Positions 30,186 through 46,633 of a stretch of 64,000 nt of DNA are shown here, piece by piece (position 1 is the first letter of the stretch; every line of letters begins with the position of its first letter). The stretch comes from Sporocytophaga sp. GTDB taxonomy: Bacteria > Bacteroidota > Bacteroidia > Cytophagales > Cytophagaceae. Location of the stretch: contig NZ_JAGHZZ010000005.1 in NCBI RefSeq assembly GCF_017745095.1, forward strand, positions 178,245 through 242,244. Reading direction: 5' to 3'. The translations under genes and the position numbers were made by a program. Under the pieces are notes generated by a model. The model saw nothing but the letters and a program-made list of their open reading frames with translations. It was not told where the DNA came from and did no database searches.

Positions 30186-32195
30186 TTACTTTTTGAATAT
30201 ATTTCTTGTGTAACAGTGGCTTTCTGTTACTAAATTTAAATAATAAACTCCTGGAAGCAGTTCGCTTCCTATGCTCAATTCATTGGCGTGTATGTCTTTG
30301 GTGTAGAAAATTTCTTTTCCTTCTGAATTAAATAATCTTACACTTAAAATTTTCTCAGGTCTTTCCATTGATATTTTCAAATCAGATGAAAACGGATTTG
30401 GAAAGATGAACAGTTGGTTATTATTATCAGAGACTTGGATGGCGCTCACAGTACTTATTGAAACGGATATTGTATTAGATTTCGATGTTTGGCCTTTGTT
30501 GTCTTTTGCAATGGCAAAAATATCATATTTTCCATCATTAGATTCAGTCCAAAGCATTGAATACGGCGGCTGGGAAATTGTGCCTATTAAATTGTTTCTA
30601 CTATAAAACTCTATACTTGCAATACTGCCATCAGAGTCATTTGCTGTTGTTTTAATATTGATTGAAGCAGGAGCATTGAATACACTGTTATTTGTTGGTT
30701 CTATAATCGAAATTGTTGGTAAGGAATTAACACTAATTTGAAGGGGAGAGGAAACTGTGCTTGCGTCTGTATTATCAAAAGCCTTTGCAGTAATGGTGTG
30801 GTTTCCAGCTGATACATTGGTTAATGAAAAACTATATGGCACATCATTATCAGTTCCCAAAAGGGAAGACCCATCATAGAACTCTACTTTGGTTATAGTG
30901 CCATCAGGGTCTGTTGCATTAGCATTAATGACAAATGATCCGGGAGCATTAATTATCTGGCTGTTTTCAGGATCTATGATAGTTATAACCGGAGGAAGAT
31001 TATTTAATTTGTAAAGAAAAAAATCATCTCCACAAGCGCTTCCTGTACCGGATTGTTTATACCAAAATACAATTGCACTGGTATTGGAACTTCCTGTAGT
31101 AAAGACCACAGAATCTTTAGTAAGCGAAGTACTACTTATAGTTTTGGTAATCTGATTTCCGCCATAATTCTTGACACCAAACATTGCTGATTCTCCAGAG
31201 GTATTTACTTTTCCATATCCTCCGAATACATATCTGGTATTAGGTTCTAGCGTAACTGACCTTTCAATGCTGACAGGATTTCCTGAGAGCTTTACACCAT
31301 AATTACCAGCCCTTTTGCAATCAGTGGTTACCGTCGCATTATTCCAAGGTCCCCATGGAGAAAGGCTGCCTGTTTCAAAATCAAAATTTGCAGATTCATT
31401 TGCCTTCCATACTCTTACCCAATCGCACTGGAATAAGGCAGGCCATTGAGCATTTGCAAGGGGAGTGGGAGCCCAGCCATCTATTGCAAGGTTAATAATC
31501 ATATACATGTTTTTACCTTGTGCAGCCTCTGATCTGTTTGTATAAGAATTAAGCAGCTGTCCATCGAAATAAAACTTCATATATGTTGGTCCCCATTCTA
31601 CTCCGTAAGTATGAAAAGCTTGTGATTTGTCTGGTCCGGTATGAGTAGTTCCAAATGATTTCTCATTCTGCCAATCCGGGCCATAGTGGTAATAGTAGTG
31701 GTGGACTTTGCGATCGTCTGGAATTTCCAGAATATCAATTTCCGGAGGCCAAGCTCCATCGGCATTCAATGTCCAGAATGCTGGCCATGTTCCTGATGTA
31801 GATGGAGCTTTGAATCTTCCTTCAATATATCCATAAGTTGTCTCGAATTTTCCTTTTGAATGGATAGCCCCGCTGGTATAATCAAAGCTGAGGTAACCAA
31901 AATCAGGATATTTATCAGTTCCTGCAGGTGCGTTGGGGTGTCTTTTATTTATTGCTTTTAAGCTGAGAATTCCATCTTTGAGAGTGACCATTGAGTCTGT
32001 CATATAAGCCCTGTGGTTATGGGTATTCCCCCAAGGATAATTATACCCCCATTTAGATTGATCCAACTTTGTGCCGTCAAAATTATCTTCAAATACAAGC
32101 TTCCAGTTGGCTGAAGCGCCAGGTGGTTGAGCATTTGAAAATTGGAAGTATAAAATATTAATTAAAATCCATATGGAGCAGTTTTTCCTGTTCAT
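30186..32195 (-). CDS. Secreted GH16 beta-glucanase with carbohydrate-binding and Ig-like modules, T9SS
   Basis: 669-residue exported glycanase. Signal peptide about 1-22; GH16 domain about 28-265 with the catalytic motif E152-I-D154-I-L-E157 (nucleophile and acid/base) in WPPEIDILEIPDD, preceded by AFWTLNADG. This suits a laminarinase or beta-1,3(4)-glucanase. Residues about 268-395 form a CBM4/9-like beta-sandwich (NFDFETGSLSPWGPWNNATV). Two Ig-like domains follow (about 400-490 and 493-580; each with VEFYDG or IEFYSR and LLGT or LIGT). The end is a type IX sorting domain (FIFPNPFSSDLKISM ... GVYYLNLVTE). It lies downstream of the GH5 gene on the same strand but behind a terminator, so is likely separately expressed. 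Confidence 0.93.
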   Translation of the reverse strand: MNRKNCSIWILINILYFQFSNAQPPGASANWKLVFEDNFDGTKLDQSKWGYNYPWGNTHNHRAYMTDSMVTLKDGILSLKAINKRHPNAPAGTDKYPDFGYLSFDYTSGAIHSKGKFETTYGYIEGRFKAPSTSGTWPAFWTLNADGAWPPEIDILEIPDDRKVHHYYYHYGPDWQNEKSFGTTHTGPDKSQAFHTYGVEWGPTYMKFYFDGQLLNSYTNRSEAAQGKNMYMIINLAIDGWAPTPLANAQWPALFQCDWVRVWKANESANFDFETGSLSPWGPWNNATVTTDCKRAGNYGVKLSGNPVSIERSVTLEPNTRYVFGGYGKVNTSGESAMFGVKNYGGNQITKTISSTSLTKDSVVFTTGSSNTSAIVFWYKQSGTGSACGDDFFLYKLNNLPPVITIIDPENSQIINAPGSFVINANATDPDGTITKVEFYDGSSLLGTDNDVPYSFSLTNVSAGNHTITAKAFDNTDASTVSSPLQISVNSLPTISIIEPTNNSVFNAPASINIKTTANDSDGSIASIEFYSRNNLIGTISQPPYSMLWTESNDGKYDIFAIAKDNKGQTSKSNTISVSISTVSAIQVSDNNNQLFIFPNPFSSDLKISMERPEKILSVRLFNSEGKEIFYTKDIHANELSIGSELLPGVYYLNLVTESHCYTRNIFKK

Positions 32196-32291
32196 ATTTT
32201 GTTAGATCTGTTTAGGTCCTTCTACATTACAAATTGGGAAGAAATTGGTAAACTGAATTGTTGAAAAAAAAGGTTTGGAGGATCTTAAATT

Positions 32292-32325
32292 AAAAAAGCC
32301 CCCCGATTTTCGGAGAGCCTTTTTA
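32292..32325 (-). terminator. Terminator of the GH5 gene
   Basis: On the minus strand, AAAAAGGCTCTCCGA folds against TCGGGGGGCTTTTTT with G-U pairs, followed by T residues, 20 bp after the GH5 stop. Confidence 0.8.
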
Positions 32326-32345
32326 ATATGGAAAGAAAATATAGT

Positions 32346-35033
32346 TTATTCGACTACAACTCTAACATGTTCAATACCATTTGCGCCTGTAAGCTCGAGC
32401 ATGTAGATGCCACGGGAAACATTTTGCAATGGTAGCTCTTCATTTAAGGCAGAAAGAGATTTTGTTTTAACAACATTTCCTGCCATGTCCATCATTACAA
32501 CTTTGTTGTAGGACATTGCTTCCTGTCTGATATTGATCAAGCCGTTTGCAGGCATTGGATAAACAGTTACTTTGCGTTCAGCTTTTACAGGTATTGAAGT
32601 AATAACCTCGAAAGCTTCAAAAGTCATATTATCAATGTTTGCATCAGGTCCGTCGATAACAAGTCTTATTACTTGTTTTCCTTGTTTCAGGGAAATCGGC
32701 TGAGTAGTTTTCAGAGTTGTGTAAGTTTGCCACCCACCTGTTGAAGCTAGAGAGAAATCAGAGTTTGGAATTTTTATACCGTTTTGTTCCAGATGCCATT
32801 TTCCGGTAGCACGTTCAGATGCGGCTTTGAAGCTTACATGATATGTTCCAGGATATTTCACATCTACAGTATAGTTTAACCATTCTCCCGTAGCTGTATA
32901 GCCTATATTCCAGTTGTTAGTAGTTCCTCCAGCTAGTTCAATGTCCACAGCCTCATTAGGTCTGTAATTTCCACCTGCTTCATTCGTGGTAGTTAGATCA
33001 TTATATGCAACTCCTTGTCCTCCTTTATCAAAGTTTTCAGCTTCGATAGTTCCTGGAATAGGATATGGTGTTCCAGAATAAGAATTCCCATCACATTCTG
33101 CTTGACCGGTATTGCCTCCAACGCATTTACCACATAGGTCAATAAATGCAGTACCTCCAGCAACACCATTACAATCGCAGCCAGTTTCAGGTACGCCACA
33201 ACCGCATTTTCCTGGTTTTGTTTTGTTCGGGTCATTCGGACAAAGATCAACATCTACATATTCTTCACAGGTCACAGCTTTAGTTTCATCATATCCAAGG
33301 CTGAAGTTATCAATGGTCCAGGTTCCTGTAAACGGATTTCTTGCATATACTCCGCTTACTTTTGGATTTACCCAAATAGTGATTTTGGTTACTTTAGAGA
33401 AATCAAAAGTTGTTTTGTCATATGTATCTTCCTGAGGGTTGCTATTCGTTCCAGGTGTTGTCGGAGGAGTTCTTTTAACTCCGTTTGTGAAATCAGCAAT
33501 GATAGTTTTGGTTGTACCATCTACCGGAACTATAAAACGATTGTAAGATCCTAAAGCACTGGCATTGATACTCTTTTCGTTAGCATCTACAAGTTCGATA
33601 TACAATGCTATGTCATTAGCTGAGTAATTTGTTTTTGTGAAGCTAACATCAAATTTTAGCACAGCATTGGCGCGAAGATCAATAGGTATATGCTTTGTAG
33701 CATCTAATTTCCCGAAGTCAAATCCGAAAGTAGAATAGTCTGGGTCAGCATTTATAGATGTGATTACAAGTTTTTCATTCTGAATTACAGCTGAATAAAC
33801 TTTACTTCCTTCTGAAGGCTTTTTCCAATAAGTAAAATATGGAACAGAATCTCTTGAGAAATCTGTTTTTACATAGGCTTGTTTGTTATTATATCCCTGG
33901 CAATAGTTTGTGTTGAACGTATTGGTAATAGGGCATCCATAAATGTTAAGATTAGATCCTGTTGAATTAGGACATACAGCAGGTTTAGGAGTAACTGGGA
34001 TAGTTACAGATCCGCAAGCTGTATAATTTTTGGTTTTTCTAAGTTCATCGTAGATAAGTTTTCCTGAATTACCTGAGTTATCTGTTCTGAAATTAATCCA
34101 TGATTCTGTAAGACAAGAACCCTCTTTTAACAATGAAGATGATTCAGTTTTATCTGAAAACTGCCAGTTAGCCCAGCTGATCTTATTTTGTTCTAATAAG
34201 GATAACCAGTCTCTGGAATTTCCAGAATTTATATTCCCAGCGCCACTTGCTTCTGTAGTCCCCCACTCTGAAACGAAGACAGGAAACTTAGCAGAAACTG
34301 CATCTTTCAAATAGTTTTTATACTGATCATGAGCTCCACTTCCTGCATAAAAATGCAAAGTGTACATTACATTCTTTGAATAATTTGCTGATAAAGGACT
34401 ATTTCTTGCCTGATCTATTCTGCTGCTCCATTCTGGCGTTCCTACAAGAATAACGGCATTTGGGTCATTGTTTCTAATTGCAGGAATAATATCCTGAGCA
34501 TAATTTTTAATCTGATCCCATGAAGTCCCACTATTCGGCTCATTACAGATTTCATAAATGACATGTTTTTTGTCCTTATATTTGCTGGACATCAAAGTGA
34601 AAAATGCCTTTGCCTGTGATTGATAGGTTCCGGGATTTCCATCCTTTAAAATATGCCAGTCAATAATTACATATATTCCATACTTTTCTGTAAGGCTTAC
34701 CATTTTGTCTATCCACTGATAATAAAAATCTTTATCAGTAGCTTGCGCAAAGCCCTTTGTGGCACCATCACTATTTTCAGTATAAATAGCAAGTCTCAGC
34801 AGGTCAGCCTTCCAATCTTGAGCAATTGCTTTAACTGAAGATTCAGTATAGCATTCCTGGTGAAACATCACCCCATGAGTACTTAGGCCACGTAGCTGTA
34901 TGGCTGTTCCGCATTCATTGACCAGTTTGCCATCAGTAACATTTAACCTCCCATTCATAGAAAGCGGTGTCTGAGCTCTGGAAAGCACTGCTATTAAAAG
35001 AAGCATGTGCATTACGAGTAGAGTTTTTTTCAT
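32346..35033 (-). CDS. Secreted multi-domain GH5 endoglucanase with CBM6 and T9SS domain
   Basis: 895-residue cellulase. Signal peptide about 1-20; GH5 catalytic domain about 25-340 with acid/base Glu165 in IYEICNEPN and nucleophile Glu256 in VFVSEWGT, plus IDWH and HFYAGSGA, the pattern of subfamily GH5_2. A beta-rich module follows at about 380-590 (FSRDSVPYFTYWKKPSEGSK ... TWTIDNFSLGYDE), possibly a carbohydrate-binding domain. Residues about 595-655 are a Cys-rich linker with DLCPNDPNKTKPGKCGCG and DLCGKCVGGN, like calcium-binding thrombospondin type 3 repeats. A CBM6 follows (IPGTIEAENFDKGG ... NIDNMTFEAF), and last the type IX sorting domain. It should attack cellulose at the cell surface. 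Confidence 0.93.
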   Translation of the reverse strand: MKKTLLVMHMLLLIAVLSRAQTPLSMNGRLNVTDGKLVNECGTAIQLRGLSTHGVMFHQECYTESSVKAIAQDWKADLLRLAIYTENSDGATKGFAQATDKDFYYQWIDKMVSLTEKYGIYVIIDWHILKDGNPGTYQSQAKAFFTLMSSKYKDKKHVIYEICNEPNSGTSWDQIKNYAQDIIPAIRNNDPNAVILVGTPEWSSRIDQARNSPLSANYSKNVMYTLHFYAGSGAHDQYKNYLKDAVSAKFPVFVSEWGTTEASGAGNINSGNSRDWLSLLEQNKISWANWQFSDKTESSSLLKEGSCLTESWINFRTDNSGNSGKLIYDELRKTKNYTACGSVTIPVTPKPAVCPNSTGSNLNIYGCPITNTFNTNYCQGYNNKQAYVKTDFSRDSVPYFTYWKKPSEGSKVYSAVIQNEKLVITSINADPDYSTFGFDFGKLDATKHIPIDLRANAVLKFDVSFTKTNYSANDIALYIELVDANEKSINASALGSYNRFIVPVDGTTKTIIADFTNGVKRTPPTTPGTNSNPQEDTYDKTTFDFSKVTKITIWVNPKVSGVYARNPFTGTWTIDNFSLGYDETKAVTCEEYVDVDLCPNDPNKTKPGKCGCGVPETGCDCNGVAGGTAFIDLCGKCVGGNTGQAECDGNSYSGTPYPIPGTIEAENFDKGGQGVAYNDLTTTNEAGGNYRPNEAVDIELAGGTTNNWNIGYTATGEWLNYTVDVKYPGTYHVSFKAASERATGKWHLEQNGIKIPNSDFSLASTGGWQTYTTLKTTQPISLKQGKQVIRLVIDGPDANIDNMTFEAFEVITSIPVKAERKVTVYPMPANGLINIRQEAMSYNKVVMMDMAGNVVKTKSLSALNEELPLQNVSRGIYMLELTGANGIEHVRVVVE

Positions 35034-35406: not shown

Positions 35407-36897
35407 TTAGACAGCCTTTATTTTGAATTTACCATTTTTAATGGTGCCTTTATGTTTCACCTGAACCCAAATATAATAGACTCCTGGTTTTGGAAACACA
35501 TATGGGAATATAATTTCACTATTATATTCATTCTTTGATCTCATAAGACTTATAGTTTGTTTATCAACGACACCAGTCGTATCCAAACTTGCGATATTAG
35601 CATCGGATAAATTTCCACATATTGTCACATTTTTATCGATCTTTTGTGCAAGTGCGTATTGAGAAGCCATTGAAATAGTTCCCATAGGATGTAGATGGAT
35701 AAAGACAGATGCATCATCTTTCATTACTACTGCGTGTCCCGCCATTCCAAGGTATGGTTGCAGGTTTGCTGGCATATTGCCATCTTCAGTACATTTAAAA
35801 GAAATTTTTACTGGTTTGCCTGCAATAATATCGTTCTGGATATTGGCCTTTATTTTTAGATTGTCAATAATGGAAGCCTCTGAGTTTAATGGAACATCTC
35901 CTGCAAAATCATTAGTATCTATAATTTCCGAATTTATCTTTTCCAATACTTGTAGCGTATCTGTAAGGGTTTCAGCCATCCCGTTAGAATGAACAACTTC
36001 AGCAAATACCAGATAATTCCCTTCATTCAAAGAAGGCAGAAAACTCGTAAAATGTAATGAATCTTTTGGTATAGGATGAAGGTGGGCAAACTGTTGACCT
36101 TTTGTATCTATCAGAAAAAGATGCATTAACTTACCATGATCGGCAATCAGGTCATTTACTTTCCTTTCTTGCCATTCAGGATTCACAATATCAAGGTAAA
36201 GGTTGCTTTTATCATTTTCTTTTTTAATGTGCGCATTTAACTTAAGGGGTTTGAACATGTTATTTCTATAATCACTTTCTACTTTACCCCACCAGTTATT
36301 GGCAAATATGAGTAATGATACAATTGAAATAAATGTAATGCTCATGACAATAATAGCTGATCTTTTCCCTTTAGGGGTAGGTATCGCCCCATGAGGGATT
36401 GTTGATTCTTTGATCGCAGCTCCTATTATAGTAATAAGTGACAAAATTAAAAAAGCGCCCATAATCTGAAGTCCCAAACTGGTGGTTTGATCCATAGTTC
36501 TTGTTGCAGTCGCTATAGCAGGAACCGGGACAATTGTTGAGCCAATACCTTTTTTTCCTTCTACAGATACTTTCACGCTTGAAGAACCGAAGGTCATAAG
36601 CCAAAGACTACCTTCATATAAGTGATTCATTCCAGCCACCTTTTTGATGTCATCACCTTTGGGTGCACCTGATGATCCGTATTGATAATAGACAGGTTGT
36701 ATTTTAATTCGATTTATTTTTTCATTTCCTGCATCTATCAAGATTTTAGCTATTCCCGGTACTACATCCGGTGGTTGTATGGTTATAAGCAAAGGATAAG
36801 GACCTGCATTGCCCTGATATACGATATCCGGACTTCCAACATGGGCGCGGGATTGTAAACTTATAAGAACCAGTAATAAAGTTATATAAAGTTTCAT
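35407..36897 (-). CDS. PmoB-like layout: exported His-initiated protein with two membrane helices and HLHP motifs
   Basis: 496 residues, function unknown. Signal peptide 1-18 ends in SRA, so the mature protein should start with His19 (HVGSPDIVY), as in PmoB, CopC and LPMO, where an N-terminal His binds copper. A beta-rich domain spans about 19-130. Helices at about 138-161 and 180-200 form a membrane hairpin. The C-terminal extracytoplasmic part has DHGKLMHLFLI (His254, His259), FAHLHP (His272, His274), a His303, GMAGHAV (His388) and FIHLHPMGTISM (His401, His403), and ends in a strand-rich segment. This order (beta domain, two helices, beta domain) equals PmoB. The classical PmoB His137-x-His139 is not visible in the first domain. 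The gene overlaps the upstream membrane-protein gene by 4 nt. Homology is inferred; YtkA-like copper proteins are the alternative. Confidence 0.6.
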   Translation of the reverse strand: MKLYITLLLVLISLQSRAHVGSPDIVYQGNAGPYPLLITIQPPDVVPGIAKILIDAGNEKINRIKIQPVYYQYGSSGAPKGDDIKKVAGMNHLYEGSLWLMTFGSSSVKVSVEGKKGIGSTIVPVPAIATATRTMDQTTSLGLQIMGAFLILSLITIIGAAIKESTIPHGAIPTPKGKRSAIIVMSITFISIVSLLIFANNWWGKVESDYRNNMFKPLKLNAHIKKENDKSNLYLDIVNPEWQERKVNDLIADHGKLMHLFLIDTKGQQFAHLHPIPKDSLHFTSFLPSLNEGNYLVFAEVVHSNGMAETLTDTLQVLEKINSEIIDTNDFAGDVPLNSEASIIDNLKIKANIQNDIIAGKPVKISFKCTEDGNMPANLQPYLGMAGHAVVMKDDASVFIHLHPMGTISMASQYALAQKIDKNVTICGNLSDANIASLDTTGVVDKQTISLMRSKNEYNSEIIFPYVFPKPGVYYIWVQVKHKGTIKNGKFKIKAV

Positions 36898-38087
36898 CTT
36901 TGAACCCTCCTCATCCAGTTACCCCATTTTAAACCCAGGTAAGAGAAGACTATAGCATATGTTAGCGCGATCATAAATCCTAAATAGTATTGAGTTGTAG
37001 TTCCTGCATATCTTGTAAATTCAAATCTGTTTGGTACACTTGGATCTTTATAGTAGGGTAAAGCATGTGTTTGGAAAATCCAATTGTGAGATATTGGCGA
37101 ATTAAGAAAGTAAGAAAAGAACCATTGCGCTATAAATATAGATGCAAAGAACGAGGAACCACATAAGACCGCCTGAGCAAAAATATTTTTGTTGTTGATT
37201 CTTTTATAAAGTTTATCAAGTATAAAACCTGGTATAATTAATAATAAAGGAAATAAAAGCGGGACATAATGCTTTATTGGATTAAGAATGGGGGCAAGCT
37301 TAGGCTCTGCAGGAATCAGGGGTAACATCCATAGCTGGATGAGCAATATTACAGTATAGAATCCAGTGATTGTTGTAGCAGGATAGCTTAATCTTGATCC
37401 ACGCATTGTCGCTGTAACGGGCATTATCAAAACAGAACAAATCAATTGGTAAAACAATGGATTATGCATTTTAGTCCTTCCTAAATGCTCTATAATGAAT
37501 ATATACATTGCAATAAGAAACAAAGATGCTGTGTAGGCAAAGCCCCATCTGAGTAGATTATTATTCATGGGATGAATTTGCTCTCTTTGATTTTGAAAGG
37601 AAAGGACCGTAAGCATTGTTCCTGTGAGGATACTGATAATGCCTGCAAATAGAAGTGCATGTGGCGGACTTAAAATTTTTACATCAAGACCGTATGTATT
37701 ATGCCACCAATCATCAAATGGAGCAGACGTAAGCATAGCAGCGGCTCCCCAAATACAAAGTAAAGTTCCTAAAGGGGCTTTCATTCCCCAGAATGATACA
37801 CTGCTGTTTCTGATTTCTACTTTCTTGCTGAATGTTATTTTTAATAATTTGATGATAGATCCAATGCCAGTAGCAAGTCCACCTAAGTAGATCGCAAGGT
37901 GTGGTGGAGAAAATAAACTGTCTCTGCCTATACTCATATGCCAGGAAATGTCCCATATAACGCCAGTCATGATACTTGTTACCCCAAATATTAGAAAGAT
38001 TGTATATAAAGAAATATGACTTTCTCGCTGTTCAGTTTTCTTTGATGGCAGTTTAAATACAGGTGTAATTGTTTCCATATTAGTCAT
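36894..38087 (-). CDS. Polytopic membrane protein with two PmoC-like putative copper motifs
   Basis: 397 residues with about ten predicted helices. Two similar helix hairpins each carry a motif: Asp46, His50, His63 within WDISWHMSIGRD...SPPH, and Asp125, His129, His143 within FDDWWHNTYGLD...SPPH. The spacings, +4/+13 and +4/+14, equal those of the CuC (Asp156, His160, His173) and CuD (Asn227, His231, His245) ligands of Methylococcus PmoC as I recall them. The first also keeps the Trp before His and the Arg-Asp of the AmoC/PmoC signature. Each site lies at a helix end. It overlaps the PmoB-like gene by 4 nt (ATGA), so the pair is co-translated. I infer a distant PmoC/AmoC relative binding copper or another metal; activity is unknown. 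ATG 38078 is an alternative start. Confidence 0.6.
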   Translation of the reverse strand: MTNMETITPVFKLPSKKTEQRESHISLYTIFLIFGVTSIMTGVIWDISWHMSIGRDSLFSPPHLAIYLGGLATGIGSIIKLLKITFSKKVEIRNSSVSFWGMKAPLGTLLCIWGAAAMLTSAPFDDWWHNTYGLDVKILSPPHALLFAGIISILTGTMLTVLSFQNQREQIHPMNNNLLRWGFAYTASLFLIAMYIFIIEHLGRTKMHNPLFYQLICSVLIMPVTATMRGSRLSYPATTITGFYTVILLIQLWMLPLIPAEPKLAPILNPIKHYVPLLFPLLLIIPGFILDKLYKRINNKNIFAQAVLCGSSFFASIFIAQWFFSYFLNSPISHNWIFQTHALPYYKDPSVPNRFEFTRYAGTTTQYYLGFMIALTYAIVFSYLGLKWGNWMRRVQR

Positions 38088-39533: not shown

Positions 39534-40745
39534 TCAAAAAAGGCTTAGCTGATTTGAACCTTTATCTTCAGATTTTTTAGATTTACCAAAGACAGTCATA
39601 CCGCCATATTTGTATGCATTATTTCGTTCTTCTTCAATAATTTTATCGAAATTATCATTAGGGATAAATTCTTTTTCTATTTCAAATGAAAGTTGTGATA
39701 GTTTTTTTATAGCTTGATCTTTTTCATTACTTCCTAGTTTGGCTTTTTCTACAGCGTACTTCAATGTATCTATAGTTTCGTCATATACCTTGGTTAAAAC
39801 AGGAAAAGGGTGTCCATCTTTTCCTCCATGGGCAAAAGAAAATCTTGCAGGATCTTTAAATCTAGAAGGAGTTCCATGAATAATCTCACTTACCAGTGTC
39901 ATAGACTGTATTGTTCTTGGTCCAAGGTCTTTAAGAAGAATAAGCTCTTCGAAATTTCTTACTTCAGTTTCATGTGCAAGCGCCAGCACACTTCCAAGTC
40001 TTTTGAGATTAACATCTGTCACATTGAGTTCATGACGTAGAGGCATTATAAGCTTCTTGATCTCATTCATCATTATTCCGGGTTGTTCCTTGGTTAGTTC
40101 CAACAGACCATTTCTTGCAGGTGCAGCTTCTTTATGTGTCAGGTTTAATATTAATCCTTGATTCTTTCCAAAGATGCTGGTGTGAGGTTCTTCTTCAAAT
40201 GATTTTATGCTTGAACTGTGCCAATGATATCGTCTGGCCATTTTGTTTTGTTCATTCATCCCTTGCTGAACTACAGCCCATTCACCTGTTTTGGTTACAA
40301 TGAAAGAATGTAGATATAGCTGAAAACCGTCCTGTATAGCATTGTTGTCAATTTTTGCTGTAAGTTTGCTGGATCTTATGAGATCGTTGGCATTCAAGCC
40401 TTGTTTTTCTGAGATTTTTAATAACTCATCAGGGGTGTTTCTGGAATGTTTTCCTTTACCTCCGCAAATATAAATCCCGAGCTCTGAGGATTTAGGATTA
40501 ACTGCTTTTTTTAAGGCTCCCATCACTGATGTTGTGATCCCTGAAGAATGCCAATCCATGCCTAAAACTGCTCCAAATGCCTGAAACCACAAGGGATCAC
40601 TTAATCTTTTCAGAACTTCTGAGGTACCATAATGATAAATTAAGGATTCGACAATTGCGCCTCCTAGTTTTGCCATTCTTTCAGAAAGCCAATATGGGAC
40701 GTGCCCGCCATGCAATGGGAGATCAGCAGAACCTGAACGTCTCAT
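39534..40745 (-). CDS. DUF763 protein with a C-terminal beta-clamp-binding motif
   Basis: 403-residue protein of family DUF763, begun by MRRSGSADLPLHGGHVPYWL. It contains GMDWHSSGITTSVMGALK and the typical C-terminal part. Residues 266-290 (ELILLKDLGPRTIQSMTLVSEII) form a helix-hairpin-helix DNA-binding motif. The last five residues are QLSLF (399-403), the consensus of the bacterial sliding-clamp-binding peptide QL(S/D)LF, placed on a flexible Lys/Glu-rich tail where clamp-binding peptides typically sit. Together these suggest a role in DNA replication or repair, perhaps as a nuclease or DNA-binding factor; the family has no established function. It is monocistronic. Confidence 0.85.
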   Translation of the reverse strand: MRRSGSADLPLHGGHVPYWLSERMAKLGGAIVESLIYHYGTSEVLKRLSDPLWFQAFGAVLGMDWHSSGITTSVMGALKKAVNPKSSELGIYICGGKGKHSRNTPDELLKISEKQGLNANDLIRSSKLTAKIDNNAIQDGFQLYLHSFIVTKTGEWAVVQQGMNEQNKMARRYHWHSSSIKSFEEEPHTSIFGKNQGLILNLTHKEAAPARNGLLELTKEQPGIMMNEIKKLIMPLRHELNVTDVNLKRLGSVLALAHETEVRNFEELILLKDLGPRTIQSMTLVSEIIHGTPSRFKDPARFSFAHGGKDGHPFPVLTKVYDETIDTLKYAVEKAKLGSNEKDQAIKKLSQLSFEIEKEFIPNDNFDKIIEEERNNAYKYGGMTVFGKSKKSEDKGSNQLSLF

Positions 40746-44029: not shown

Positions 44030-46633
44030 GTGATTAGTAATCTGGAGAAAAAATACAAGTTTAAGGATCTTAAGATCTTTTCGTCCACTGAAACAATGGA
44101 TGGCAATACAAAAAAGTACAGAAGGGTATATGATACTAAAGAAATTACCTATTTGTATTGTGAATTATCTTTTTACAATAAACTATTTGACGAAGCTGAC
44201 TGGGAAGCAAAGATCCTTTTAAAAGCCTTTGCCCTGAATGAGACAGGTAGGAGAGAGCTTTGTTGTATCGAAAGGAAAGTGGAAATAACCTCTGATCAGA
44301 ATATTGTAATCATTAGGGAAGGTTGGGGAAATAAAGAAGAAGGAACTTTTTGGTTAAGAGGTGACTACGAATGGGAAGCTTACATCGAAGATGAATTTGT
44401 TGGGATAAAAAGCTTTTATGTAGAAAACGGTGGGGTGGTAGATCAAAATCTCAATCCATATTTTGAAGTTGATATTGTTCGATTATACGAGGGGCCAAAT
44501 GAAGGCATAGTCCCTGAGCAGAGAAAATCCTATATTGAGTTTGATGCAAATGAATGTAGATTTATTTGGGTAGAATTTAATATTATTAACAAACAGGCTC
44601 TTCCCTGGTACTGTGAGCTGTTTTTTAATTTTTACAATGATGCCGGCCAATTAAAAGGAAATACTTCTGAACTGAAATATATAAACCCGGAGGATAGTTT
44701 TATAACCTTTACAACCGGTTGGGGCGCAGATAGTAAGGGGACCTGGTATCATGATAAATATACGCTCGAGGTAATTTTCATGGATCAGCTTATTGCAGTA
44801 ATTCCTTTTGAAGTTAAAGATGATTTTGTTGAGGGAATTCCTTTAGTTGATTTGAATTTTAGTAACATCCCGCTTCCATTGATACTTCAGGAAGAAAAAG
44901 GACCTTCGCTTGAAGAACTGATGAAGAGTCTGCATGAAATGATAGGTCTTTCAGGTATAAAGTCGAAGATCACGGATTATACTTCTTACCTCAAATTTTT
45001 GCAGCTGAGAAAAGATCAGGGTTTTGAGGAAAATCAAAAAATAAGTCTTCATTCTGTATTTCTTGGTAATCCAGGTACTGGGAAAACGACTATAGCCAAA
45101 TTATTGGGACAGATTTATTTCAAGCTCGGACTTCTTTCCAAAGGAAAAGTTACTGAGGCCGGACGAGCTGAACTTTGTGGCAAATACATAGGACAAACAG
45201 CTCCTCAAACAAAAGAAGTAATAGAGAAGGCCAGAGGGGGTGTCTTATTTATAGATGAAGCATATTCCCTAGTAAGAGAGGGCGATACAGGCCAGGATTT
45301 TGGAAGAGAGGTAATTGAAGTTTTACTAAAAGAAATGTCTGATGGCCCTGGTGATCTGGCAATTATTGTTGCTGGTTATCCTAAGGAAATGAACCATTTT
45401 CTGGTATCTAATCCAGGATTAAAATCTCGTTTTAATCTTCTTTTTGAATTTCCTGATTATCTTCCTCAGGAGTTAATTCAAATAGCTGAACTATCAGCTG
45501 AAAAAAGATATGTTAAATTTTCGGAAAATGGTAAGAAGTTCCTTTCGGAAAAATTAACTGAGGCATATAGAAACAGAAATAAGGCCTTTGGAAATGCTCG
45601 AATGGTTACTGGTCTTGTAGAAGAAGCTAAAATGAATATGGGCTTAAGGGTTATGAAATCTCAAAACCCAGAAAAGTTGACTGCAGAACAATTACAAACT
45701 ATAGAATTGGAAGATGTAAAACAATTGTTTAAAAACTCGGCTTTGGTTTCTCCCGATATTCCTGTAGATGAAGTGCTTCTACAGGAGGCATTAAGCGAAT
45801 TGAATAAGCTTACTGGCCTTGAAGAAGTTAAAAATGAGCTTCTGGAAATGGTAAAGCTGGTGAGGTTCTACATAGAAACAGGAAGGGATGTATTAAATAA
45901 ATTTTCCCTTCATACGGTTTTTACCGGAAATCCTGGAACGGGAAAAACTTCAGTAGCAAGGATCATAGCCAAAATATATAAAGCTCTTGGAATACTCGAA
46001 CGAGGTCACTTGGTAGAAACGGATAGGCAGGGGCTTGTAGCAGGTTATATCGGACAAACTGCAATCAAAACCATGGAGCAAATTGAAAAAGCCCATGGAG
46101 GCGTTTTATTTATTGATGAAGCTTATGCCCTTTCAGAAGGCGGAAACAGTGACTTTGGGAAAGAAGCTATTGAAACTCTTCTTAAACAGATGGAGGATAA
46201 AAGGGGGCAGTTTATTGTTGTTGTTGCCGGCTATGTAGATAATATGAGAATATTTATGGAAGCCAATCCAGGCCTAAAATCAAGGTTTGATAAAGTTTTA
46301 GAGTTTAATGACTACGAGCCTTCAGAATTATTCTCAATAGCATTGAATATGTTGGCAGAAGAAAATCTGACTCCAGATGAAGATGCTTCAGCAAGGCTTA
46401 AGGAATATTTGAATTCAATATTTTTGAAACGAGACAAGTTTTTTGGAAATGCCAGATCGGTAAGAAAAATTATCAAAGAAGCTATCAGAAATCAGCATCT
46501 TAGGATGGCATCTCTTTCCGGGAATCAAAGAACTGTTGAAGTTCTTCAAATGCTGACAATGGACGACGTGAAATGTTTTATTCCGGAAACCTATCAGCCA
46601 GCTGGACGAATAGGTTTCCGGTTAGGAAGCTAA
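44030..46633 (+). CDS. Tandem CbbX/SpoVK-type AAA+ ATPase with duplicated N-terminal beta domain
   Basis: 867 residues, start GTG (44030), no nearer in-frame ATG until residue 23. Residues about 10-135 and 140-265 are two similar beta-sandwich-like modules, each with a conserved GWG...G..(F/Y)(W/H)..D.Y core (GWGNKEEGTFWLRGDYEWEA and GWGADSKGTWYHDKYTLEV). Two AAA+ domains follow, both CbxX/CfqX-like: Walker A GNPGTGKT at 346-353 and 633-640, Walker B VLFIDEA at 405-411 and 692-698, and both have arginine-finger motifs NPGLKSRF. The pore loop GYIGQTA or KYIGQTA fits CbbX-type unfoldases. It probably remodels a protein partner in the cytosol. Partner unknown; no rubisco here. Confidence 0.9.
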   Translation: MISNLEKKYKFKDLKIFSSTETMDGNTKKYRRVYDTKEITYLYCELSFYNKLFDEADWEAKILLKAFALNETGRRELCCIERKVEITSDQNIVIIREGWGNKEEGTFWLRGDYEWEAYIEDEFVGIKSFYVENGGVVDQNLNPYFEVDIVRLYEGPNEGIVPEQRKSYIEFDANECRFIWVEFNIINKQALPWYCELFFNFYNDAGQLKGNTSELKYINPEDSFITFTTGWGADSKGTWYHDKYTLEVIFMDQLIAVIPFEVKDDFVEGIPLVDLNFSNIPLPLILQEEKGPSLEELMKSLHEMIGLSGIKSKITDYTSYLKFLQLRKDQGFEENQKISLHSVFLGNPGTGKTTIAKLLGQIYFKLGLLSKGKVTEAGRAELCGKYIGQTAPQTKEVIEKARGGVLFIDEAYSLVREGDTGQDFGREVIEVLLKEMSDGPGDLAIIVAGYPKEMNHFLVSNPGLKSRFNLLFEFPDYLPQELIQIAELSAEKRYVKFSENGKKFLSEKLTEAYRNRNKAFGNARMVTGLVEEAKMNMGLRVMKSQNPEKLTAEQLQTIELEDVKQLFKNSALVSPDIPVDEVLLQEALSELNKLTGLEEVKNELLEMVKLVRFYIETGRDVLNKFSLHTVFTGNPGTGKTSVARIIAKIYKALGILERGHLVETDRQGLVAGYIGQTAIKTMEQIEKAHGGVLFIDEAYALSEGGNSDFGKEAIETLLKQMEDKRGQFIVVVAGYVDNMRIFMEANPGLKSRFDKVLEFNDYEPSELFSIALNMLAEENLTPDEDASARLKEYLNSIFLKRDKFFGNARSVRKIIKEAIRNQHLRMASLSGNQRTVEVLQMLTMDDVKCFIPETYQPAGRIGFRLGS

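Follow-up and report, generated by a model that had tools for sequence, protein, structure and literature searches.

The 64,000-nucleotide stretch of a Sporocytophaga sp. genome analysed here (GCF_017745095.1, contig NZ_JAGHZZ010000005.1, positions 178,245 to 242,244; hereafter the window) carries on its minus strand a two-gene operon, in which a gene for a membrane protein, denoted C (36894-38087), overlaps by 4 bp a gene for a partner protein, denoted B (35407-36897). The features under discussion are listed below; CuC and CuD are the metal sites of PmoC, the C subunit of particulate methane monooxygenase (pMMO), to which C is compared.

36894..38087, minus strand: gene C, a membrane protein with a PmoC/AmoC-like core (397 amino acids (aa), approximately 10 predicted transmembrane (TM) helices, N-terminus probably inside)
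37899..37952, minus strand: CuC-like motif D46-x3-H50-x12-H63 of C (codons 46-63), from the end of TM1 to the start of TM2, on the predicted periplasmic side
37659..37715, minus strand: CuD-like motif D125-x3-H129-x13-H143 of C (codons 125-143), from the end of TM3 to the start of TM4
35407..36897, minus strand: gene B, the partner (496 aa; a signal peptide and a beta domain, followed by two TM helices and a pair of HxH beta domains)
36841..36843, minus strand: His19 of B, the predicted first mature residue after a presumed cleavage

Neither protein has a significant match in Pfam or NCBIfam, in agreement with an earlier account of this DNA made from its letters alone (the sequence-only reading), which had supposed sequences similar to C to be unannotated; searches of the PDB with the C sequence and with a 53-row C profile likewise returned nothing significant. 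The same reading had identified two motifs in C with the ligand spacing of PmoC/AmoC, and both are present in the 397-aa open reading frame (ORF): D46/H50/H63 and D125/H129/H143, with a tryptophan directly before the first histidine of each (W49 and W128, respectively) and SPPH closing both.

The C family set comprises 86 rows from 83 loci, one row being the window gene. It derives from 88 phmmer hits, from which the one at locus L084 and a 74-aa antisense ORF in L067 were removed, and counts two genes of genome G249 twice owing to the overlap of loci L082 and L085. In the analysis as a whole, L199 (internal TAG) and L203-L205 (fragments) were left out, and L136 (stop) was removed at a later stage. 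Ligand conservation in homologues, the point set beforehand as a possible refutation, proved complete: D46, H50, H63, D125, H129 and H143 are invariant in 86/86 rows, at loci collected with six patterns that included motif peptides. Both motifs are also retained in 18/18 rows from a whole-profile search, representing at most 13 new genes (L193/L212, L194/L213, L197/L214 and L202/L211 are pairs of the same genes, and L192 is the gene of L024). Among the 3521 remaining ORFs at the loci retrieved, three have the two bare spacings together. A more complete signature for motif 1, D..WH....RD..[FWL].P.H, elements of which the sequence-only reading had ascribed to PmoC/AmoC, is found in 76/86 family rows, 12/13 PmoC/AmoC rows and 0/3521 other ORFs; for motif 2, [DN].W.H.....[DE].....P.H, the corresponding figures are 86/86, 10/13 and 0/3521. 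The motifs of C exceed chance expectation.

The closest relative of the window protein is encoded in a Sporocytophaga metagenome-assembled genome (MAG; 84% identity), and the earlier impression that such sequences are widespread is borne out by relatives labelled in database records as Bacteroidota, Acidobacteria ('Bryobacterales' and 'Terriglobia' included) and Gemmatimonadetes. C is present in 37/241 genomes of the window's order and in 13/247 genomes of the phylum of a Bryobacterales genome (G296), two of the latter being fragments only; matches occur in 4/296 genomes of the window's phylum, including one TatC-like match and the window's own genome. A second match in the window's genome and one phylum match (L002, L084) were considered as members of the family, read by eye as TatC, and dropped. 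In genome G364 (L210 2788-4034), C appears as two overlapping ORFs (243 aa and 177 aa) and is interrupted at about residue 220, which may reflect a split gene or a frameshift.

Comparison with PmoC rests on published ligand assignments: Asp156, His160 and His173 for CuC, and Asn227, His231 and His245 for CuD (PMC12576850). These are the ligands that the sequence-only reading had named, and the Methylococcus capsulatus PmoC sequence used here is identical to PDB 7ev9_C at 260/260 residues. Spacings in the window protein (+4/+13 and +4/+14) equal those of PmoC, as claimed, and the two sites lie 79 residues apart, compared with 71 in PmoC and 70-71 in five actinobacterial relatives described below. 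An unconstrained hhalign comparison of the 53-row C profile with 13 AmoC/PmoC rows (phage PmoC sequences were used solely as AmoC rows) gave P = 7.9e-5 and a score of 41.6, and pairs D46 with D156, H50 with H160, H63 with H173, D125 with N227, H129 with H231 and H143 with H245. The best of 583 column-shuffled profiles (of 600, those giving a result) scored 30.9. For the N-terminal half of an enlarged C set (53 + 18 rows), the match to AmoC reached P = 8.8e-6 and a score of 42.1, against a best shuffle of 27.7 among 486 (of 500) that gave a result, and the best of 59 real neighbour families scored 18.4 against AmoC, only two of these having at least four TM helices by a crude count. A four-row actinobacterial set, which includes a piece from Rubrobacter that is absent from the five-row set, matches AmoC/PmoC in the same register with P = 7.7e-5, the highest score among 583 shuffles being 37.9; the first part of the five actinobacterial rows matches AmoC at P = 7.6e-5.

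The agreement extends beyond the ligands. W49, R55, D56 and P141 of C align with residues invariant in PmoC, the mostly kept P61 meets a nearly invariant residue, D135 meets the invariant Glu237, and the invariant Tyr67 of C aligns with PmoC Phe177. The equivalent of CuD Asn227 is an aspartate in 86/86 C rows, with both CuD histidines retained. Pfam AmoC (PF04896) matches land on the C gene in 6/8 other C-carrying genomes and are the best of the genome in five, over ranges compatible with the same ligand register; they remain below the cut-off of 26.7 bits (best 15.2 bits on C; 15.7 anywhere in the eight genomes), and no AmoC match at E<=10 was found in the window's own genome. On these sequence comparisons we consider it very probable that the C family shares ancestry with the PmoC/AmoC metal-binding core. 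The two share the spacings, the D..WH....RD..F.P.H-type signature, the Pro-x-His element, in the actinobacterial branch the site distance, and an adjoining periplasmic-type partner gene; unlike PmoC/AmoC, C has an aspartate for the CuD asparagine and roughly ten TM helices (the core first, with some six added behind), falls below the Pfam cut-off, and has at its locus neither a PmoA gene nor a recognisable PmoB.

An AlphaFold2 model of C (mean per-residue confidence score, pLDDT, 92.1) places D46 and H50 at the end of helix 1, H63 at the start of helix 2, D125 and H129 at the end of helix 3, and H143 at the start of helix 4. By sequence reading, the last four TM helices of PmoC, for which five were counted in the first crystal structure (PMC12576850), carry their ligands at corresponding places; we hold it highly probable that these four helices and TM helices 1-4 of C are homologous. 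Loop charges weakly favour a cytoplasmic N-terminus (K+R 12 inside and 9 outside; the helix boundaries follow the model, apart from one placed by hand), in which case both metal sites would face the periplasm.

B accompanies C in 80/83 loci and in 5/5 further stretches. Two of the loci lacking it are cut short, L035 by the end of its contig and L082 by that of the stretch, and L085, from the same genome as L082, shows B. Variants of gene order include B then C (L069, L073), C-B-C (L074) and tandem C-C-B (L082/L085). Following a signal-peptide-like start, the predicted mature N-terminus of B is a histidine in 80/80 rows, preceded by Ala, Gly or Ser in 80/80; H254, H259, H272, H274, M385, H388, H401 and H403 are likewise invariant in 80/80. 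In an AlphaFold2 model (mean pLDDT 86.1), a pair of long helices separates a beta domain from further beta domains, and the two HxH domains resemble one another (P = 1.2e-4 over 31 columns, no shuffle control). No Pfam YtkA or CopC match of B lies above cut-off: YtkA is matched at E<=1 by 7/53 members, the best being the N-terminal domain of the L059 protein (E = 1.6e-4, 22.7 bits; cut-off 25.9), ten members scanned singly gave one further YtkA match, at the far end, and CopC is matched in 1/53 members, also at the far end. We refer to B as a putative copper-binding partner.

In Actinomycetota, C- and B-like parts are fused in one chain. A tblastn search of plasmids yielded actinobacterial relatives in seven records; their N-terminal part matches C (P = 6.7e-19 with four rows, 2.4e-20 with five), and their C-terminal domain matches the N-terminal region of B (118 columns, P = 2.9e-5, no shuffle control) and begins AxA|HDPGQG in 5/5 proteins. 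Plasmid context was read at six loci, Streptomyces FR1 being left out; by annotation, 5/6 sit amid copper or heavy-metal genes, with heavy-metal P-type ATPases, a multicopper oxidase, CopY/BlaI-type regulators, and heavy-metal-associated or cupredoxin-domain proteins as neighbours. The Mycolicibacterium chubuense NBB4 plasmid pMYCCH.01 (L206, L182) carries a classical operon for a copper membrane monooxygenase (CuMMO, the enzyme group that includes pMMO) together with a fused C-B relative, and two Streptomyces metal islands (L087, L207, L208) share other families lacking a known function (DUF6153, DUF5134) near the relative.

We propose that C and B constitute a two-component copper-handling module in which the core of C is related to PmoC, a reading to which we attach a probability of roughly 0.5. 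C stands beside a putative copper-binding B instead of the usual enzyme subunits and so may be a copper-handling relative of the CuMMOs; B and the plasmid context point to copper handling rather than to a monooxygenase. In the mechanism envisaged, four TM helices of the C core would form two Asp-His-His sites, presumably near one another, on the periplasmic side of the inner membrane, where they most likely bind copper. B, once cleaved, would capture periplasmic copper via its N-terminal histidine and two HxH domains and, probably in a complex with C, would pass it to the paired sites; C would then move copper across or along the membrane, for import or for delivery to cuproproteins. The aspartate at the CuD-like site argues for metal holding rather than for a neutral Cu(I) catalytic site: CuD of pMMO is reported to have neutral ligands only, whilst CuC includes a carboxylate (PMC11194816). 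A CuMMO-like oxidase nevertheless keeps some probability; Thermoplasmata CuMMOs likewise lack the D-site, and for these the study concerned claims no biochemical evidence (PMC9038741).

Such a hand-over would resemble the CopC to CopD transfer proposed for YcnJ, which comprises a CopC domain with an N-terminal histidine (histidine brace), CopD and YtkA, and of which CopC and CopD residues are needed under copper limitation (PMC13344008). In common with YcnJ and other CopC-CopD(-YtkA) arrangements, the C-B pair joins a membrane protein with metal-binding residues to an extracytoplasmic domain with an N-terminal histidine, fused or separate, and B resembles YtkA, weakly and below cut-off; it differs in that C has no CopD match and another TM motif, and in that B has two HxH domains plus two TM helices. 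CopD (PF05425) is not among the matches of C at E<=10, nor is it found in the window's genome at E<=0.001. Assuming that two draws of the 241 order genomes are identical, CopD occurs above cut-off in 0/37 genomes with C and 17/204 without, but at E<=0.001 in 7/37 and 36/204, respectively; avoidance of CopD by genomes with C was considered and set aside.

Several observations weigh against a copper-handling module with a PmoC-related core. One Bryobacterales MAG (L024 7950-9137) has C without B in the stretch examined; no copper gene lies within 5 kb of the plasmid-borne relative in Rubrobacter; and at the 29 non-plasmid loci listed neighbours are varied, with no visible copper genes. At these 29 loci no third gene besides C and B is constant either, and other neighbour counts (23 loci, for example), which largely reflect how many Dyadobacter were sampled, were not used as a signal. 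The five full-length actinobacterial rows match AmoC more weakly (P = 5.3e-4), and Foldseek searches of the PDB and BFVD with the model of C returned nothing significant, PmoC being absent among the best 50 of 249 PDB rows and the best 50 of 115 BFVD rows; this silence is perhaps weakened, as the four-helix overlap is a minority of the C chain. The proposal of the sequence-only reading, a distant C-subunit-like relative of the CuMMOs, is supported at the level of sequence, by an in-register profile match reached from two branches, with some limits: the second site is Asp-His-His, PmoC does not appear among those best Foldseek matches, and copper is the presumed metal.

The foremost alternative, which we consider rather unlikely, is a CuMMO-like, O2-activating membrane oxidase, in which C, perhaps with a PmoA-like C-terminal half, and B would use the CuD-like site to oxidise a small substrate. 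Consistent with this, the CuD-equivalent histidines and the P-x-H element are invariant in C, Tyr67 lies opposite one of three phenylalanines around CuD (Phe177; PMC11194816), and C precedes B as in pmoCAB. B also shares the layout of PmoB (PF04744), with a signal peptide, N-terminal histidine, beta domain, two TM helices and beta domain; in PmoB a pair of TM helices connects two cupredoxin-like barrels, and its CuB uses the N-terminal His33 (PMC12576850). The likeness is of layout only; B has two C-terminal HxH domains rather than one cupredoxin, and the B protein of the window lacks an HxH in its N-terminal domain. Homology of B to PmoB is not supported, there being no convincing profile similarity (P = 0.3 and 0.019), and PF04744 is found in 0/14 genomes, though controls gave no match either. 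The replacement of the CuD asparagine by aspartate throughout the family and the location of plasmid relatives in heavy-metal islands also speak against an oxidase.

A weak hint of PmoA is seen in the C-terminal half of C. This half, picked for the comparison after a first look, gave P = 0.039, 0.018, 0.0051 and 0.0054 with growing sets; the last alignment is colinear over 111 columns, and the score was reached by 3/750 shuffles with the last-but-one set and 0/500 with the last. Full-length C of the last-but-one set gave P = 0.011 over 47 columns, and in one of 14 genomes a weak PmoA-model match (E = 1.97) falls, by coordinates, on the C-terminal half of C. Conversely, an unrelated real 5-TM neighbour family scored 22.0 over 99 columns against PmoA, near the 26.5 of C, the actinobacterial middle part shows no resemblance (P = 0.29 and 0.73), the GDWxFWxDWKDR stretch of PmoA is absent from the window protein, and PF02461 (PmoA/AmoA) is above cut-off in 0/14 genomes. 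A bolder form of the idea would see in the two genes a CuMMO-like complex reduced to a minimum and perhaps ancestral, arranged as C-A-B, with C as PmoC core plus PmoA-like half, B as the PmoB counterpart and the actinobacterial protein as the whole in one chain; we regard this as unlikely, given that the 5-TM family scores close to C and the actinobacterial branch lends no support. Separately, 117 stretches of viral contigs encode PmoC relatives, and six PmoA peptide patterns match none of them; as the patterns differ, this is a hint only.

A less probable alternative still retains the architecture and hand-over and changes the metal to nickel, zinc or cobalt, on the model of the N-terminal-His 'anglerase' domains on HupE/UreJ-2 permeases. 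N-terminal-His proteins have more than one metal among their ligands, some of them being attached to permeases (PMC12537917), zinc occupied CuC in the first crystal structures (PMC12576850), and plasmid pI of S. mirabilis, which carries a relative, has nickel determinants (PMC9195940). The anglerase-HupE/UreJ-2 proteins (PMC12537917) share with C-B an N-terminal-His metal-binding domain attached to a membrane protein; the actinobacterial fusions are reversed, however, with the membrane part first, and the membrane parts can be set side by side by layout only. Copper is favoured by the homology of C to a copper subunit and by a gene neighbourhood that includes a multicopper oxidase, CopY/BlaI-type regulators and cupredoxins.

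Convergence, in which helix hairpins of an unrelated metal transporter would place Asp, His and His as in PmoC by chance, draws on the silence of Foldseek, the sub-cut-off Pfam AmoC matches and the not very rare bare spacings, but is very improbable in view of the conserved PmoC residues matched beyond the ligands, the single register obtained from two branches with no shuffle attaining the real score, and the site distance of the actinobacterial proteins.

In the open-licence literature searched, as far as its text was available, no description of the C family was recognised, although it may be described elsewhere; a CuMMO evolutionary study treats xmoCAB operons (PMC6215863). A family outside the CuMMOs that keeps both PmoC metal sites without clear A and B subunits could serve as an outgroup for the C subunit, and would allow the roles of CuC and CuD to be studied apart from the remainder of the enzyme. 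To our knowledge, the role of each pMMO copper and the origin of the CuMMOs are open questions; C may hint at the latter, and if the C-A-B arrangement were true, CuMMOs would share descent with a copper-handling module. The copper-handling reading predicts such a module in several bacterial phyla, one for which the versions of Pfam and NCBIfam used here had no family.

Elsewhere in the window, the region directly downstream of the operon (30186-35033) encodes GH16 and GH5 enzymes, the latter with CBM6, that end in C-terminal sorting domains. A complete DUF763 protein, of a family of unknown function, lies at 39534-40745 (E = 7e-136), and a protein of 867 aa at 44030-46633 contains AAA ATPase and AAA_lid_6 stretches, two of each.

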